Below, in pieces: positions 48,048 to 51,547 of a stretch of DNA of 64,000 nucleotides (positions are counted from its first letter, which is position 1; each line of letters begins with the position of its first letter). The DNA comes from Agreia sp. Leaf283. GTDB taxonomy: Bacteria; Actinomycetota; Actinomycetes; Actinomycetales; Microbacteriaceae. The notes below the pieces were generated by a model. It did no database searches, was not told where the DNA came from, and saw nothing but the letters and a program-made list of their open reading frames with translations. A program made the translations under genes and the position numbers. The stretch is from NCBI RefSeq assembly GCF_001422485.1, contig NZ_LMNF01000001.1, forward strand, positions 1,773,402-1,837,401, given 5' to 3'.

Positions 48048-49292
48048 GTGACTCAGCCGTTCACCTCTCCCATCGCCGTCGTCCCGACCGGAGCCCCCGG
48101 ACGTCCCTTCCCCTGGGGCGGCCTGCTCGTGCTCGCCTCGGCCGTGTTCCTCTCGGTCACCGCCGAAATGCTTCCCACGGGCCTCCTGCCGGAGATGAGC
48201 GCGGAGCTCGGGGTCGGCCAGTCGCAGATCGGGCTGCTCGTCTCGGTCTTCGCCTTCGCGGTCGTGCTCACGAGCATCCCTCTCTCGCGGCTGACACGCA
48301 GCGTCTCTCGGCACCGCCTGATCGTTCTCGTGCTCATCGTCGTCTCGCTCTCGAGCGCGGTCACCGCCATCGCGCCGAGCTTCGAGATCCTCGTGGGAGC
48401 GCGCATCGTGGGCGGCATGGCGCACGGGCTGTTCTGGGCAGTGATGGGCGCCTATTCGGGCTATCTCGTGCCGAAGGAGCAGCTCGGCCGAGCCGTCGCC
48501 ATCACCACCGGTGGAGGCACGCTCGCCTTCGTGCTCGGCGTTCCCCTCGGCACCGTGCTCGGGCAGGCCGTCGGGTGGCGGAGCGCGTTCGGGGCCATCG
48601 CGGTGCTGTGCATCGTGGGCGCGGCCCTGATGCTTTGGCTGTTGCCCCGGGTGGAGCGCCCGGCCAAGTCCGATGCGCCGGCGGAACGGCATCCGTCGGG
48701 CCGACGCAAGCTCGATGCATCGGTGCCCGCCGTCGCCCTGCTCTGCCTGCTGGCCGCCGTCATCATGATCGGTCATTACGCCTTCTACACCTTCATCGCG
48801 CCCTATCTCATCGGGGAGCTGGGTGTGGATTCCGGCGACGTGGGACTGCTGCTGGCGATCTACGGCATCGCCGGCGCGGGCGGCCTGCTGCTCGCCGGAA
48901 CGGTGTTCGGTCGGCATCCCACGCTCGGCGTGGTGATCGGTGTCGCCGTCACCGCGATCTCGGTGACCGTCATGGCCCTGTTCGCGGCCAACCCGATGAT
49001 CGCCATCCCGGCGTTCGTGCTGTGGGGACTCGTCTTCGGAACCCTGCCGCCGCTCCTCGGCGCCCGGCTGCTGCATGTCGCATCGGTCGACATCCGCGAT
49101 ACGGCGAGTGCGTTCTATTCGACGTCGTTCAATGTCGGCATCGGCGGGGGAGCCCTCGTGGGCGCGGCCCTGCTCGACGGGTTCGGTCTGACGTCGCTTC
49201 CGGTGGCGTACCTGATCACCCTGGCGCTCGCGGGCGTGCTGCTGGTGGCGGCCGAGCTGAACTCGCGCCGCCGCAGCGCGCGCGTCAGCTGA
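48048..49292 (+). CDS. MFS transporter, DHA1-type efflux permease
   Basis: The 414-residue protein has twelve hydrophobic helices and the DHA1 sequence style: TAEMLPTGLLPEMSAELGVGQSQIGLLVSVFAFAVVL in the first helices (AraJ/PbuE-like), the motif A-like loop IPLSRLTRSVSRHRL and RIVGGMAHGLFWAVMG. A substrate cannot be assigned. I start at GTG 48048; TTG 48030 is possible and neither has a good ribosome site. Its end overlaps the convergent sigma factor gene by eight bases. Confidence 0.88.
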   Translation: MTQPFTSPIAVVPTGAPGRPFPWGGLLVLASAVFLSVTAEMLPTGLLPEMSAELGVGQSQIGLLVSVFAFAVVLTSIPLSRLTRSVSRHRLIVLVLIVVSLSSAVTAIAPSFEILVGARIVGGMAHGLFWAVMGAYSGYLVPKEQLGRAVAITTGGGTLAFVLGVPLGTVLGQAVGWRSAFGAIAVLCIVGAALMLWLLPRVERPAKSDAPAERHPSGRRKLDASVPAVALLCLLAAVIMIGHYAFYTFIAPYLIGELGVDSGDVGLLLAIYGIAGAGGLLLAGTVFGRHPTLGVVIGVAVTAISVTVMALFAANPMIAIPAFVLWGLVFGTLPPLLGARLLHVASVDIRDTASAFYSTSFNVGIGGGALVGAALLDGFGLTSLPVAYLITLALAGVLLVAAELNSRRRSARVS

Positions 49293-51258
49293 TCGCGTAG
49301 GAGATGAGTCGGGTCAGACCGTATCGGCCGGAATCAGGGTCGTAGTACCGCATGCCGAGTTCGATCGGCCCGGTCACCTCGGAGCCGTAGACCTGCGACC
49401 ACATTCCGCTGTCGTCGAGCACGTGGATGTCACCGCGAACCTCGCCGTTCACGATGCGCTGGATGCTGGCGCCGGGCACTCCGGATATGGAGAGTTCGTA
49501 GGTGTCGGCGACCGGGATCGAAGCTCCCTCGAGGGGATTCTGGATCGTGGGAGCCTCGAGGACCACGAGGTGCTGGGGAGCGCTCGGGTCTGATGCGACC
49601 CCGTCGACGACCTGTCGAACGACGACCTCGCGACCGGCGGGGTCGCCGGAGATGCTGGAGCCGAAGTCGGAGATCGACCAGGTACCGTCGTCGGCCGCTG
49701 TCGTGGACACCAGGGTATTGCCGTCGGCATCGAGGATCTCTATCGATGACAGCGGTTCGGCGATGCCGCTGAACACCGGGAAGGTGAGCTGGTCGGCAGC
49801 CTGCTCGACGATCACGGTGGGAGCCGCGGGGGTGGGTTCGGGGTCGACCGGAGGTTCGGTGGGCGGGGTCGTGGGCGGGGTGGGATCGACGGGGGGCGTG
49901 GTCGGCACGACGACCGGCGGTGTCGACGGCTCAGCGGAGGTCGACGGTTCTGCCGGTGTGCTCGGGCCGGGGGCGTCGCTCGGCGACGGATCCGGTGCGA
50001 CGGCGGGTTTCGTGGGGCTGCCGGGCGTGCCGGGACGCGTCGGTTCGGGCTCGGCCTCTGGCGCGGGTGCCGTGGTCGGCGCAGGCGGCGTGGCCGGGGC
50101 CGGGGCGGGATCGGCGACGACGGCCTTGTCGGAATCGCTGGAGGAGTCGCCGGGATCGGCTGTGGAGGAGTCGGGTGAGACGTCGGCGGAGGACGCCTCG
50201 TCTGCCGGGGTGGCGAACAGCCCGGGGCCGAGGGTGACGGCCGCGACCACGGCGGCGGCGAGAGCGAGGGCTCCGACGGCCGAGCCGACGATGCCGGCCG
50301 CGCCGATGCCGGATGCGGCCGCACCCGTCGTGCCTCCGACGCTCGACGATGTGCTGCCGACAATCGATGACGTGGATCCGTTAGCACTCGCGGCGGAGGA
50401 GCCCGAGGTGAGGTCGGCCGGCATCGTCGCGGCCGCCACCAGCCCGCCTGCCGTGCCGCTGCCCGCCTGCATCCACGAGAGGAACCCGGCGGCGCCGGAG
50501 ACACCGGCCGCGAGGGGAAGCAGCACGAGGGCGAGGCGGGAACCGACCTGGCGTGCTTCGTCGGCGACGATGGTGCACGAGGTGCATCCGGCGAGGTGAT
50601 CGCGGACCCTCTTGGACTCGCGCGCGCCGAGCGTGCCCCGGGTGAACGAGCCGAGGCGCTCGATGGCGGCCGCGCACTCGGGATCTGTCGTGCGCCGGAG
50701 GTGCGCCTGGATCCACGCCTGACGCAGGCCCTCTCGTGCGCGGTAGGTGAGCGCCGAGACCGCGTTGGCCTTCATGCCGAGGAGCGGGGCGATCTCCGCA
50801 GACGAGAGCTGCTCGACCTCGCTGTACCACAGGGCCTCCTGCCAGCGCGTGGGGAGGCTGCGGAATGCGTTGACCGTGAGGCTCTTGTCGAGCGCGGCGA
50901 GGGAGGCGTCTTCTTCTGTCGAGGGGTCGGCGATCAGGTCGAGGTCTTCGCTGGCGTCGGCGCTCTTGGCGCGCGCCCACTGCATCGACACGTTGCGGAT
51001 GGTGGTGAAGAGGTAGGGGCGGAAGGCCGTGGTGGGACCGCCGCCTGCGGAGATCGCCTGGAAGACGCGGGCGAAGGCCTCGGAGAGGAGATCGTCGGCA
51101 TCGAAGCGGTGGCTGCGTGCCACGGCTCGACCGGCGTTGGAGTGGCGGACCCACAGTTCGCCGAACGCAGCGGAGTTGCCGGCTCGAGTGAACTCGACGA
51201 GTTCCATGTCTGAGGCGTCGGCGTGCGGCCGGGCGGGTGGTTCGAGGTGGGCGGCCAT
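49285..51258 (-). CDS. ECF sigma factor fused to zinc-finger, transmembrane, Pro-rich and Ig-like regions
   Basis: A 657-residue single chain. Residues about 17-100 are sigma region 2 (DADDLLSEAFARVFQ) and about 128-187 region 4 (LSSAEIAPLLGMKANAVSALTYRAREGLRQAW). Next is an anti-sigma-type zinc finger (HLAGCTSC; His221, Cys225, Cys228), a hydrophobic segment (about 240-262), a Gly/Ser/Thr stretch, a second hydrophobic segment (about 320-348), a Pro/Thr/Glu-rich region of roughly 130 residues, and two beta-type Ig-like segments to the end. ECF groups with fused zinc finger and membrane parts are known (such as ECF53). The sensor-type end presumably monitors the envelope, but two membrane helices would return it to the cytoplasm, so one may not span. 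ATG 51258 has AGGAG 10 bases upstream; the GTG at 51267 sits too close to it. Confidence 0.9.
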   Translation of the reverse strand: MAAHLEPPARPHADASDMELVEFTRAGNSAAFGELWVRHSNAGRAVARSHRFDADDLLSEAFARVFQAISAGGGPTTAFRPYLFTTIRNVSMQWARAKSADASEDLDLIADPSTEEDASLAALDKSLTVNAFRSLPTRWQEALWYSEVEQLSSAEIAPLLGMKANAVSALTYRAREGLRQAWIQAHLRRTTDPECAAAIERLGSFTRGTLGARESKRVRDHLAGCTSCTIVADEARQVGSRLALVLLPLAAGVSGAAGFLSWMQAGSGTAGGLVAAATMPADLTSGSSAASANGSTSSIVGSTSSSVGGTTGAAASGIGAAGIVGSAVGALALAAAVVAAVTLGPGLFATPADEASSADVSPDSSTADPGDSSSDSDKAVVADPAPAPATPPAPTTAPAPEAEPEPTRPGTPGSPTKPAVAPDPSPSDAPGPSTPAEPSTSAEPSTPPVVVPTTPPVDPTPPTTPPTEPPVDPEPTPAAPTVIVEQAADQLTFPVFSGIAEPLSSIEILDADGNTLVSTTAADDGTWSISDFGSSISGDPAGREVVVRQVVDGVASDPSAPQHLVVLEAPTIQNPLEGASIPVADTYELSISGVPGASIQRIVNGEVRGDIHVLDDSGMWSQVYGSEVTGPIELGMRYYDPDSGRYGLTRLISYAIS

Positions 51259-51402
51259 ACGGCGCACACTCCTTTATTAAAAGGGGAATTCAGGACGGTA
51301 CTACGGGGTCCCCATTCCCCCCTCACATAAAGAGACATGCGAGGACAGCGTCTATGACGCCACTTGTGCAAGAAATCATAGCGGATGCCTCATGTAGGCT
51401 TC

Positions 51403-51478
51403 CTTATGTCGCAACTGGCGTTCAGATGGTCACCATCGGGAAGCGACTGACACGAATTCGGCCGCGCGCCTGGGTCGA
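51403..51478 (+). ncRNA. ZTP (pfl) riboswitch upstream of glyA-folD
   Basis: The conserved elements appear in order: GTCGCAACTGGCG (51408-51420), a hairpin GATGG-TCA-CCATC (51425-51437), GGGAAGCGAC (51438-51447) whose GCGAC pairs with the opening GTCGC, and after a linker CCGCGCGCCTGGG (51462-51474), the 3' pseudoknot strand. This is the pfl-motif architecture that senses ZTP/ZMP, the signal of 10-formyl-folate shortage, and glyA and folD are classic targets. A later segment GCGCGGC (51506-51512) can pair with GCCGCGC (51461-51467) inside the aptamer, giving a possible switch that exposes or hides the downstream region. Confidence 0.85.
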
Positions 51479-51547
51479 TCCGGATACCGCATCACCCCGT
51501 CGTCCGCGCGGCGACACATTCCGTTTCTGTCATGTTAGGAGCCAGTC

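Follow-up and report, generated by a model that had tools for sequence, protein, structure and literature searches.

Extracytoplasmic function (ECF) sigma factors that carry their anti-sigma part in the same polypeptide form several described groups. According to the passages on such fused proteins in PMC5826349, ECF52 is found only in Actinobacteria and combines a sigma factor, a zinc finger, a transmembrane region, a Pro-rich extension and a carbohydrate-binding domain, the Pro-rich stretch being part of the group description in PMC8999054 as well. Here, we describe a gene of this kind in a stretch of 64,000 nucleotides (nt) from Agreia sp. Leaf283 (Microbacteriaceae; contig NZ_LMNF01000001.1, positions 1,773,402 to 1,837,401), which we refer to as the window. 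As judged from its sequence, the product is a single-chain sigma and anti-sigma factor of the ECF52/ECF53 kind. The overall one-chain design is already known; the additions are an immunoglobulin (Ig)-like sensor, a promoter signature with a candidate regulon, and a reading of the chain in which it crosses the membrane once. Taken as a whole, it is likely that the gene encodes an autoregulated, membrane-tethered ECF sigma factor of this kind.

The ECF52 protein SCO4117 of Streptomyces coelicolor, as presented in the same passages, shares with the window protein an ECF sigma factor, a zf-HC2 zinc finger, a transmembrane region, a Pro-rich extension and an extracytoplasmic end. Its knock-out has a phenotype, and a strain carrying a version cut back to the sigma part shows activation of the SCO4117 gene; the authors propose excision by an uncharacterised protease and positive autoregulation, together with a promoter, CSGYN-17-SRHA, that they term theoretical (PMC5826349). 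For ECF48, ECF52 and ECF53, release is expected to occur via proteolysis in the relevant section of PMC8999054. ECF53 is described there by a fused zinc-finger anti-sigma part, one or two transmembrane helices and an extension of at most 400 residues, and the window protein fits this group by description only. A preliminary description of the stretch had named ECF53 as its example. The principle of a fused ECF factor is indeed established by both group descriptions, while the nearest characterised architecture is that of ECF52 instead. The long Pro-rich spacer, which had been called unusual, belongs to ECF52 as that group is presented in the two papers.

A further likeness exists to IutY of Pseudomonas putida (ECF243), in which a sigma factor is fused to a membrane anti-sigma factor and which is activated by Prc/RseP proteolysis, as outlined in PMC8999054. 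Set beside the window protein by description, IutY differs in being proteobacterial, in belonging to another ECF group and in its siderophore signal. RslA, RsiW and ChrR are separate zinc-binding anti-sigma (ZAS) factors acting in trans, whereas the ZAS domain lies in cis here. A paper on the Microbacteriaceae branch of fused sigma factors was not found among the papers listed by searches of the open-licence literature of PubMed Central (PMC).

Results

Architecture of the Agreia protein

The exact reading frame of the gene was borne out (Table 1), and the plus-strand frame over the same interval is interrupted by stops. The protein is an ECF sigma factor with regions 2 and 4 only: Sigma70_r2 (residues 51-98), Sigma70_r4_2 (131-176) and zf-HC2 (195-228) score above their Pfam cut-offs, and no other sigma region appeared in the Pfam scan of the window protein. 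Among the 25 NCBIfam matches listed, TIGR02937, the general ECF superfamily, is the sole one above its cut-off (65.1 bits vs 42.9), and a profile search against the PDB gave sigma-E and CnrH as best matches. The sigma part is followed by an HxxxCxxC motif with an upstream Cys (C195, H221, C225, C228), and a profile of residues 184-266 matched the solved chains of RslA (E 3.2e-4; chain 3hug_B, taken as RslA from the entry title), RsiW (0.021) and ChrR (0.07). By ligand pattern and kinship to known ZAS factors this segment is a predicted ZAS-type anti-sigma domain.

Hydropathy confirmed two hydrophobic segments, at about residues 238-263 (H1) and 313-352 (H2). The spacer that follows had been described as Pro/Thr/Glu-rich and about 130 residues long. 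Its length is accurate (128 residues, 353-480), the composition less so: with 40 Pro, 17 Thr, 16 Ser, 12 Asp and 8 Glu it is a Pro/Thr/Ser/acidic stretch. The window protein hence has the elements by which ECF52 is described, namely a zinc finger after region 4, a membrane region (by hydropathy) and a Pro-rich extension (by composition). The C-terminus differs: ECF52, as portrayed in the literature cited, ends in a carbohydrate-binding domain, while the Agreia end is Ig-like. AlphaFold2 (AF2) modelled residues 472-657 from 27 sequences as all-beta with a mean predicted local distance difference test (pLDDT) of 93.7, and the best Foldseek matches were Ig-type adhesin repeats of SiiE (E 3.8e-9) and of the biofilm-associated protein Bap (7.1e-9), at a low template modelling (TM) score of 0.37 across both domains together. 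Pfam Big_6 at 477-530 (E 7.7e-5) lies slightly under its cut-off. Pfam, hydropathy and AF2 therefore agree with the preliminary description of a single polypeptide that unites sigma regions 2 and 4, a built-in ZAS-type finger, a membrane segment, a spacer and two Ig-like segments.

Table 1. The fused sigma gene and its parts; positions are counted in the window
Feature	Position	Strand	Basis and remarks
Fused ECF sigma coding sequence	49285..51258	-	657 amino acids (aa), ATG at 51258, stop counted in; frame and orthologues
Likely ribosome binding site AAAGGAG	51269..51275	-	10 nt upstream of ATG; read from sequence
Sigma region 2, residues 31-98	50965..51168	-	Pfam PF04542, AF2 helices, Foldseek to sigma-E/sigma-W
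Sigma region 4, residues 127-184	50707..50880	-	Pfam PF08281, AF2 helices, Foldseek
Predicted ZAS-type anti-sigma domain, C195/H221/C225/C228, residues 193-240	50539..50682	-	zf-HC2; RslA profile match E 3.2e-4
H1, conserved hydrophobic helix, residues 241-263	50470..50538	-	Hydropathy, AF2, alignment; P248, G252 invariant in 32
Variable Gly/Ala/Ser-rich linker, residues 264-318, predicted cytoplasmic	50305..50469	-	Composition, alignment
H2, putative single membrane anchor N-in/C-out, residues 319-345	50224..50304	-	Hydropathy, charge bias
Pro/Thr/Ser/acidic spacer, residues 353-480	49819..50202	-	Composition
Ig-like domain 1, residues about 483-565	49564..49812	-	Big_6, AF2 strands, Foldseek
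Ig-like domain 2, residues about 571-656	49291..49548	-	AF2 strands, Foldseek
ECF-type promoter GCGTCATA-N16-(G)TCTCTT	51330..51360	-	-35 at 51353-51360; -10 TGTCTCT at 51331-51337

A conserved family with variable ends

A search with the full protein matched six of the eight genomes of the genus at E 1e-20, including the genome that holds the window gene (G000), and the other five matches are near whole-length. The three best named relatives are full-length Agreia proteins with 66-82% identity in the best segment. On named contigs, relatives were found at 30 loci with the same domain order in most; L017 and L030 are truncated by a contig end, and no Ig end could be recognised in L041. A profile of residues 10-268 matched 111 of 299 Microbacteriaceae genomes at 1e-30, one of them with at least eight matches, and 29 of 396 genomes of the phylum at 1e-25.

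In an alignment of 32 members, H221, C225 and C228 never vary and C195 hardly does, and zf-HC2 was found in all 32 at E 0.01. The H1-H2 linker and the spacer are variable between members, and so is the C-terminal module: Big_6 was found in 9 and Big_13 in 7 of the 32, and a second set of 51 members, overlapping the first in the window protein, contained Big_6 in 11, Big_13 in 12 and laminin-G in 3. The three Streptomyces-like proteins scanned end in NPCBM or ricin-type lectin domains; the relatives with an SCO4117-like order and an NPCBM end (one scanned) come from such genomes. The Ig end is a putative lineage-specific sensor in a chain of the ECF52/ECF53 kind.

A tree of 74 sigma domains, rooted at midpoint only, contains a branch (support 100/97) that separates 57 sequences, all of fused proteins except L128 (sigma-only as sampled), from 9 plain ECF factors of G000 and 8 more distant fused proteins. 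Seven of these eight form a subgroup (98/92), and L136 groups with the plain ECF factors. The main Microbacteriaceae branch (90/87) unites 28 of the 33 sequences of the family. It neighbours the branches of the NPCBM type (11 sequences) and of the ricin type (4) and does not fall within the former; the other five family sequences stand outside it at poorly resolved positions. It is our guess that the more divergent ricin-lectin members of Streptomyces-like genomes are ECF53.

The preliminary description had allowed that a frameshift might reveal two separate genes in relatives. We found a single frameshifted copy (L076, 3732-4817), with its break between region 4 and the finger, and four sigma-only paralogues, and yet 89 of the 102 family sequences passed the filters for a fused layout (length, HxxxCxxC motif, match end). 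The 13 that were dropped are two plain ECF factors (L002, L003) and relatives that are short, broken or reduced to the sigma part. One of the sigma-only paralogues, L075 (3290-4072), encodes 183 aa and stops before the finger, and the other reading frames just past its end contained no visible finger part. The other three (L072, L073, L074; about 185 aa) lie on the opposite strand a few kb from a fused sigma gene, and the fused protein at L072 has a laminin-G end on scan. L009 is a broken copy with two in-frame stops. The distant paralogues L078, L079 and L080 adjoin large secreted proteins that by eye resemble surface proteins of the pilin or sortase type.

Only the second hydrophobic segment probably crosses the membrane

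The preliminary description took both hydrophobic segments for membrane helices, which would put the Ig end in the cytoplasm. The charges flanking H2 do not fit this and are in line with a single N-in/C-out anchor. In 20-residue flanks on either side of H2, counted over the 89 fused sequences, mean Lys/Arg is 1.03 before and 0.21 after the helix, and mean Asp/Glu is 0.13 before and 1.87 after. Net charge is higher before H2 in 85 of the 89, tied in 4 and never reversed; Lys/Arg taken separately is higher before H2 in 35, tied in 47 and lower in 7. When the sequences were clustered at 60% identity (17 clusters), Lys/Arg is higher before H2 in 14 clusters, tied in 2 and lower in 1, and net charge is higher in 15 and tied in 2. 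We conclude, on the strength of these patterns, that H2 is probably the sole crossing helix, with the sigma side inside; given such an anchor, the Ig end is probably outside.

A chain that crosses twice and keeps its Ig end in the cytoplasm can point to both segments exceeding a simple hydropathy threshold and to a linker that is short or neutral in many members. It would have to accommodate the charge bias at H2, the Arg-rich H1-H2 linkers of several members, and the extracellular-type ends of the relatives (Big_6/Big_13, laminin-G, NPCBM, ricin lectin), and we regard it as very unlikely. Quite improbable, too, is an arrangement in which H1 is the crossing helix and a site-2-protease substrate, its Pro and Gly acting as helix breakers, with H2 outside or non-crossing. 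The conserved features of H1 speak for it: P248 and G252 occur in every one of the 32 aligned members, an Arg stands at the start of H1 in 29 of 32, and the 20 residues after H1 hold few charges (means of 0.25 Lys/Arg and 0.52 Asp/Glu). H2, however, is the more membrane-prone of the two in 77 of 89 sequences (on a summed scale) and would need to escape insertion, and in the AF2 model H1 starts one residue past the last finger helix.

With H2 as the sole anchor, H1 would be part of the inhibitory domain. Its mean column identity (0.70) equals that of sigma region 2 (0.70), compared with 0.46 for H2 and 0.30 for the linker, and the weak ChrR match of the 184-266 profile extends into the start of H1. 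Several observations count against the single crossing at H2. When the count is widened to the full linker and to 60 residues beyond H2, the Lys/Arg means become alike (1.6 vs 1.5), so that the positive-inside signal is limited to the H2 flanks; the window protein itself has no Lys/Arg in its H1-H2 linker, and its bias therefore rests on the acidic side after H2; and the AF2 model of residues 1-356 (pLDDT 75.8, predicted TM score 0.44), confident for the sigma and finger helices, places H1 and H2 with low confidence.

A bipartite promoter motif accompanies the fused sigma genes

The preliminary description had proposed to look for a conserved -35/-10 pair. Such a pair is present upstream of the window gene and elsewhere in its genome, with the family consensus GCGTCAT(A/G)-N16-(A/G)TCTCT, a bipartite element of fixed spacing that differs from the CSGYN-17-SRHA proposed for ECF52 in the source cited above. 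At the window gene it stands 72-102 nt upstream of the start codon and is followed by TGAGGG at 51320-51325. Of 91 upstream regions, 40 contain CGTCAT(A/G), where mononucleotide shuffles predict 2.5. Between 45 and 140 nt upstream it is found in 36 of 94 regions, and all 36 sites, which were selected on this first element alone, have TC at offset 24-25. In a scan with these seed sites, 48 of the 94 regions, 12 of them outside the seed set, exceed the 99% mononucleotide-shuffle level; seed sites were scored leave-one-out, which keeps close relatives of the removed site in the model. The 94 regions include L112-L114, added from the phylum search, and that of the broken gene L076, whose start is unsure.

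The motif was absent upstream of the 11 NPCBM-branch members scanned, whose start codons are unsure, and upstream of the 10 plain sigma genes of G000 scanned, the best of which reached 5.2, with the 99% shuffle level at 10.3. The classical ECF promoter GGAA(C/T)-N15-17-CGT was set aside as family promoter: it occurs in 9 of 91 regions (1.6 expected), in Agreia at the window gene only, and four of the nine are alike and come from related loci (L049, L018, L028, L017).

Exact sites were counted in the 299 family genomes, where a sigma gene was called present at E 1e-30 with at most eight candidates scored per genome, and genomes called absent may carry weaker relatives. We found 99 exact sites in 53 genomes, and a reversed control pattern had zero matches in the genomes listed. 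The sites co-occur with the fused sigma gene: 50 of 111 sigma-bearing genomes have one, against 3 of 188 without sigma. Among the matches listed, 30 sites lie at sigma genes, 7 are divergent from one and 16 stand just behind one, and the remaining 46, neither at nor beside a sigma gene, fall in 30 of 111 versus 3 of 188 genomes. Linkage was judged on the profile matches listed, with coordinates entered by hand, and G270:C1:587051, a site whose sigma gene begins some 690 nt further downstream, was counted as unlinked. The genomes are related and not independent trials, and Fisher values overstate the significance.

Several findings tell against the proposal that the fused sigma itself reads these promoters. 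No exact site was found in 61 of the 111 sigma-bearing genomes, so that promoter specificity may differ between subgroups. G003 has no sigma gene and nevertheless one exact site, before a 38-codon open reading frame (ORF) and a GNAT gene. Its transporter and glyA regions align to both edges of the sigma gene plus promoter, with about 70 nt between them, and the site may reflect a recent loss of the sigma gene or another reader of the promoter. G046 (83% complete) and G051 also carry sites without a detected sigma gene. L129, a fused ECF factor of another family of the phylum, scores 12.8 against the level of 10.3. In G000, the two-element pattern has 3 exact and 18 one-mismatch sites (21) compared with 11 for the control pattern, and lone one-mismatch sites, that of the surface protein described below included, are consequently weak. 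A longer pattern (with TGAGGG and one relaxed base) gives four perfect sites in G000, and because both additions were read off the same sites these perfect matches are partly circular.

Another sigma factor might read the motif, the fused sigma gene being merely one of its targets. The site kept by G003, the sigma-bearing genomes without exact sites, and the exact sites before another ECF sigma gene in G224, G083 and G241 (G224 protein scanned), which make cascades possible, would all be compatible with this. The co-occurrence with the fused sigma gene, also that of the unlinked sites among the matches listed, and the absence of the motif from the plain sigma genes of G000 that were scanned argue the other way, and we hold such a reader to be unlikely.

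Candidate targets

Reading of the motif by the fused sigma would give a short list of candidate Agreia targets: the sigma gene, small ORFs and, as a weaker candidate, a sortase-anchored surface protein. The four perfect sites of G000 lie at the sigma gene itself, before a gene of the inositol monophosphatase family, before a 93-codon ORF preceding an ATP-binding cassette (ABC) transporter gene, and before a 38-codon ORF preceding a GNAT gene (GNAT protein of G003 scanned). In G000, G003, G004 and G006 (L210, L240-L242), this last ORF (MKKIIRKLGDRR... or similar) stands between the promoter and the GNAT gene. In G000, a gene of 1487 codons for an SdrD-type protein with a sortase anchor has a one-mismatch site of the two-element pattern in front of it, and its counterpart in G004 has a similar site with three mismatches to the longer pattern. 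On G000:C1 the surface-protein gene is located near 744,900, the gene of the inositol monophosphatase family near 483,900, and the small ORFs near 1,541,300 and 1,618,900. G001, G002 and G005, the latter outside the 299-genome set, have a site before a LuxR-type regulator (G002 protein scanned). The one-mismatch sites L211, L212 and L215-L218 were judged spurious; none has TGAGGG and several lie inside frames.

Further promoter copies were seen next to sigma genes. At L071, L092 and L093 (G091, G203 and G247, one genus), a second copy faces an Mrp/complex-I-type antiporter gene, which is oriented divergently to the sigma gene and has a leader of about 380 nt. In 16 genomes, among them G028, G030, G039, G043 and G113, an exact copy in the same orientation stands immediately past the sigma gene (among the matches listed); it starts 16-41 nt past the stop codon in L085, L089, L091, L103 and L108. 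At the two loci examined by eye, sdhA-like frames lie on the opposite strand in both and an sdhB-like frame in L103. The behind-gene promoter may make an antisense or small RNA; transcription from it would run antisense to the sdh-like frames. No tRNA genes were found near the divergent and downstream promoters of the 10 loci scanned. At L268 (G107), a 146-aa frame behind an exact site resembles, by eye, region 4 plus a zinc finger without a membrane part.

Genomic context

The sigma gene sits between glyA-folD on one side and a major facilitator superfamily (MFS) transporter gene, then purU, on the other. The adjoining genes are thus the transporter gene and glyA, and no anti-sigma gene lies directly beside the sigma gene, as had been noted before. 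glyA matches were found in the flanks of 23 of the 102 family sequences and purU in 12, and many flanks are too short to judge. At L107 and L110 purU follows the sigma gene immediately on the same strand; in Agreia the opposite-strand MFS gene intervenes. In G007 (L285) the fused sigma gene is apparently gone from the glyA-MFS interval, with a contig end near by. A ZMP/ZTP riboswitch (RF01750, 48 bits, gathering cut-off 39) at 51401-51482 on the plus strand lies in the glyA leader, within the interval that separates glyA from the divergent sigma gene. The AGGAG of the ribosome binding site is retained in five aligned Agreia relatives. A hairpin upstream of the start codon proved nothing special (z -0.60).

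Discussion

In the mechanism that we propose, the ZAS zinc-finger domain would inhibit in cis the N-terminal sigma part that precedes it, and H2 would tether the chain to the membrane, leaving the sigma part on the inner side. The Pro-rich stalk would extend into or through the cell wall and display the two adhesin-type Ig-like domains as a sensor. A signal at the Ig end, which could be a ligand, surface contact or wall strain, would be relayed inwards and the sigma part freed; regulated proteolysis, in the membrane or close to it, would be the most likely route. The free sigma would then read GCGTCAT(A/G)-N16-(A/G)TCTCT at its own promoter, giving amplification, and at a small set of other genes, some of them with surface or regulatory roles.

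For the release step, the ZAS domain might alternatively open reversibly, so that the full-length, tethered sigma transcribes at the membrane. Pfam shows no SEA-type or other cleavage domain in the window protein, and a conformational change of the zinc finger has been proposed for ECF52 (PMC5826349, in a passage citing Pinto and Mascher). The authors of the SCO4117 study, as far as their account of this protein goes, suggest excision by a protease, and the sigma part alone activates its own gene (PMC5826349). G000 moreover holds one gene of the site-2-protease family (PF02163), as the preliminary description had suggested looking for, though such genes are near universal and were present in 14 of 14 control genomes. 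Non-proteolytic release appears rather doubtful to us, and regulated proteolysis is the step we prefer.

A more far-reaching picture is offered as a tentative possibility. The fused sigma could be a Microbacteriaceae-wide surface-sensing switch, with a wall-spanning Pro-rich stalk, adhesin-type Ig domains outside, and H1 serving as a latch, that is, as a hydrophobic fourth helix of the anti-sigma domain and not as a membrane helix. The freed sigma might drive its own gene and those of sortase-anchored adhesins; in some lineages its targets would also include an Mrp-type antiporter, another ECF sigma factor and an sdhB antisense transcript. The sensor module would be swapped between lineages on a constant chassis.

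Fused sigma factors of the ECF52/ECF53 kind recur in Actinobacteria, and SCO4117, with its theoretical promoter, is the sole characterised one in the sections of PMC5826349 and PMC8999054 that treat them. The one-crossing reading proposes an answer to the problem of an even number of helices, namely that the second hydrophobic segment alone crosses. The Microbacteriaceae branch offers a promoter motif of fixed spacing, a short candidate regulon and natural sensor swaps, which together would make promoter recognition, topology and signal directly testable.

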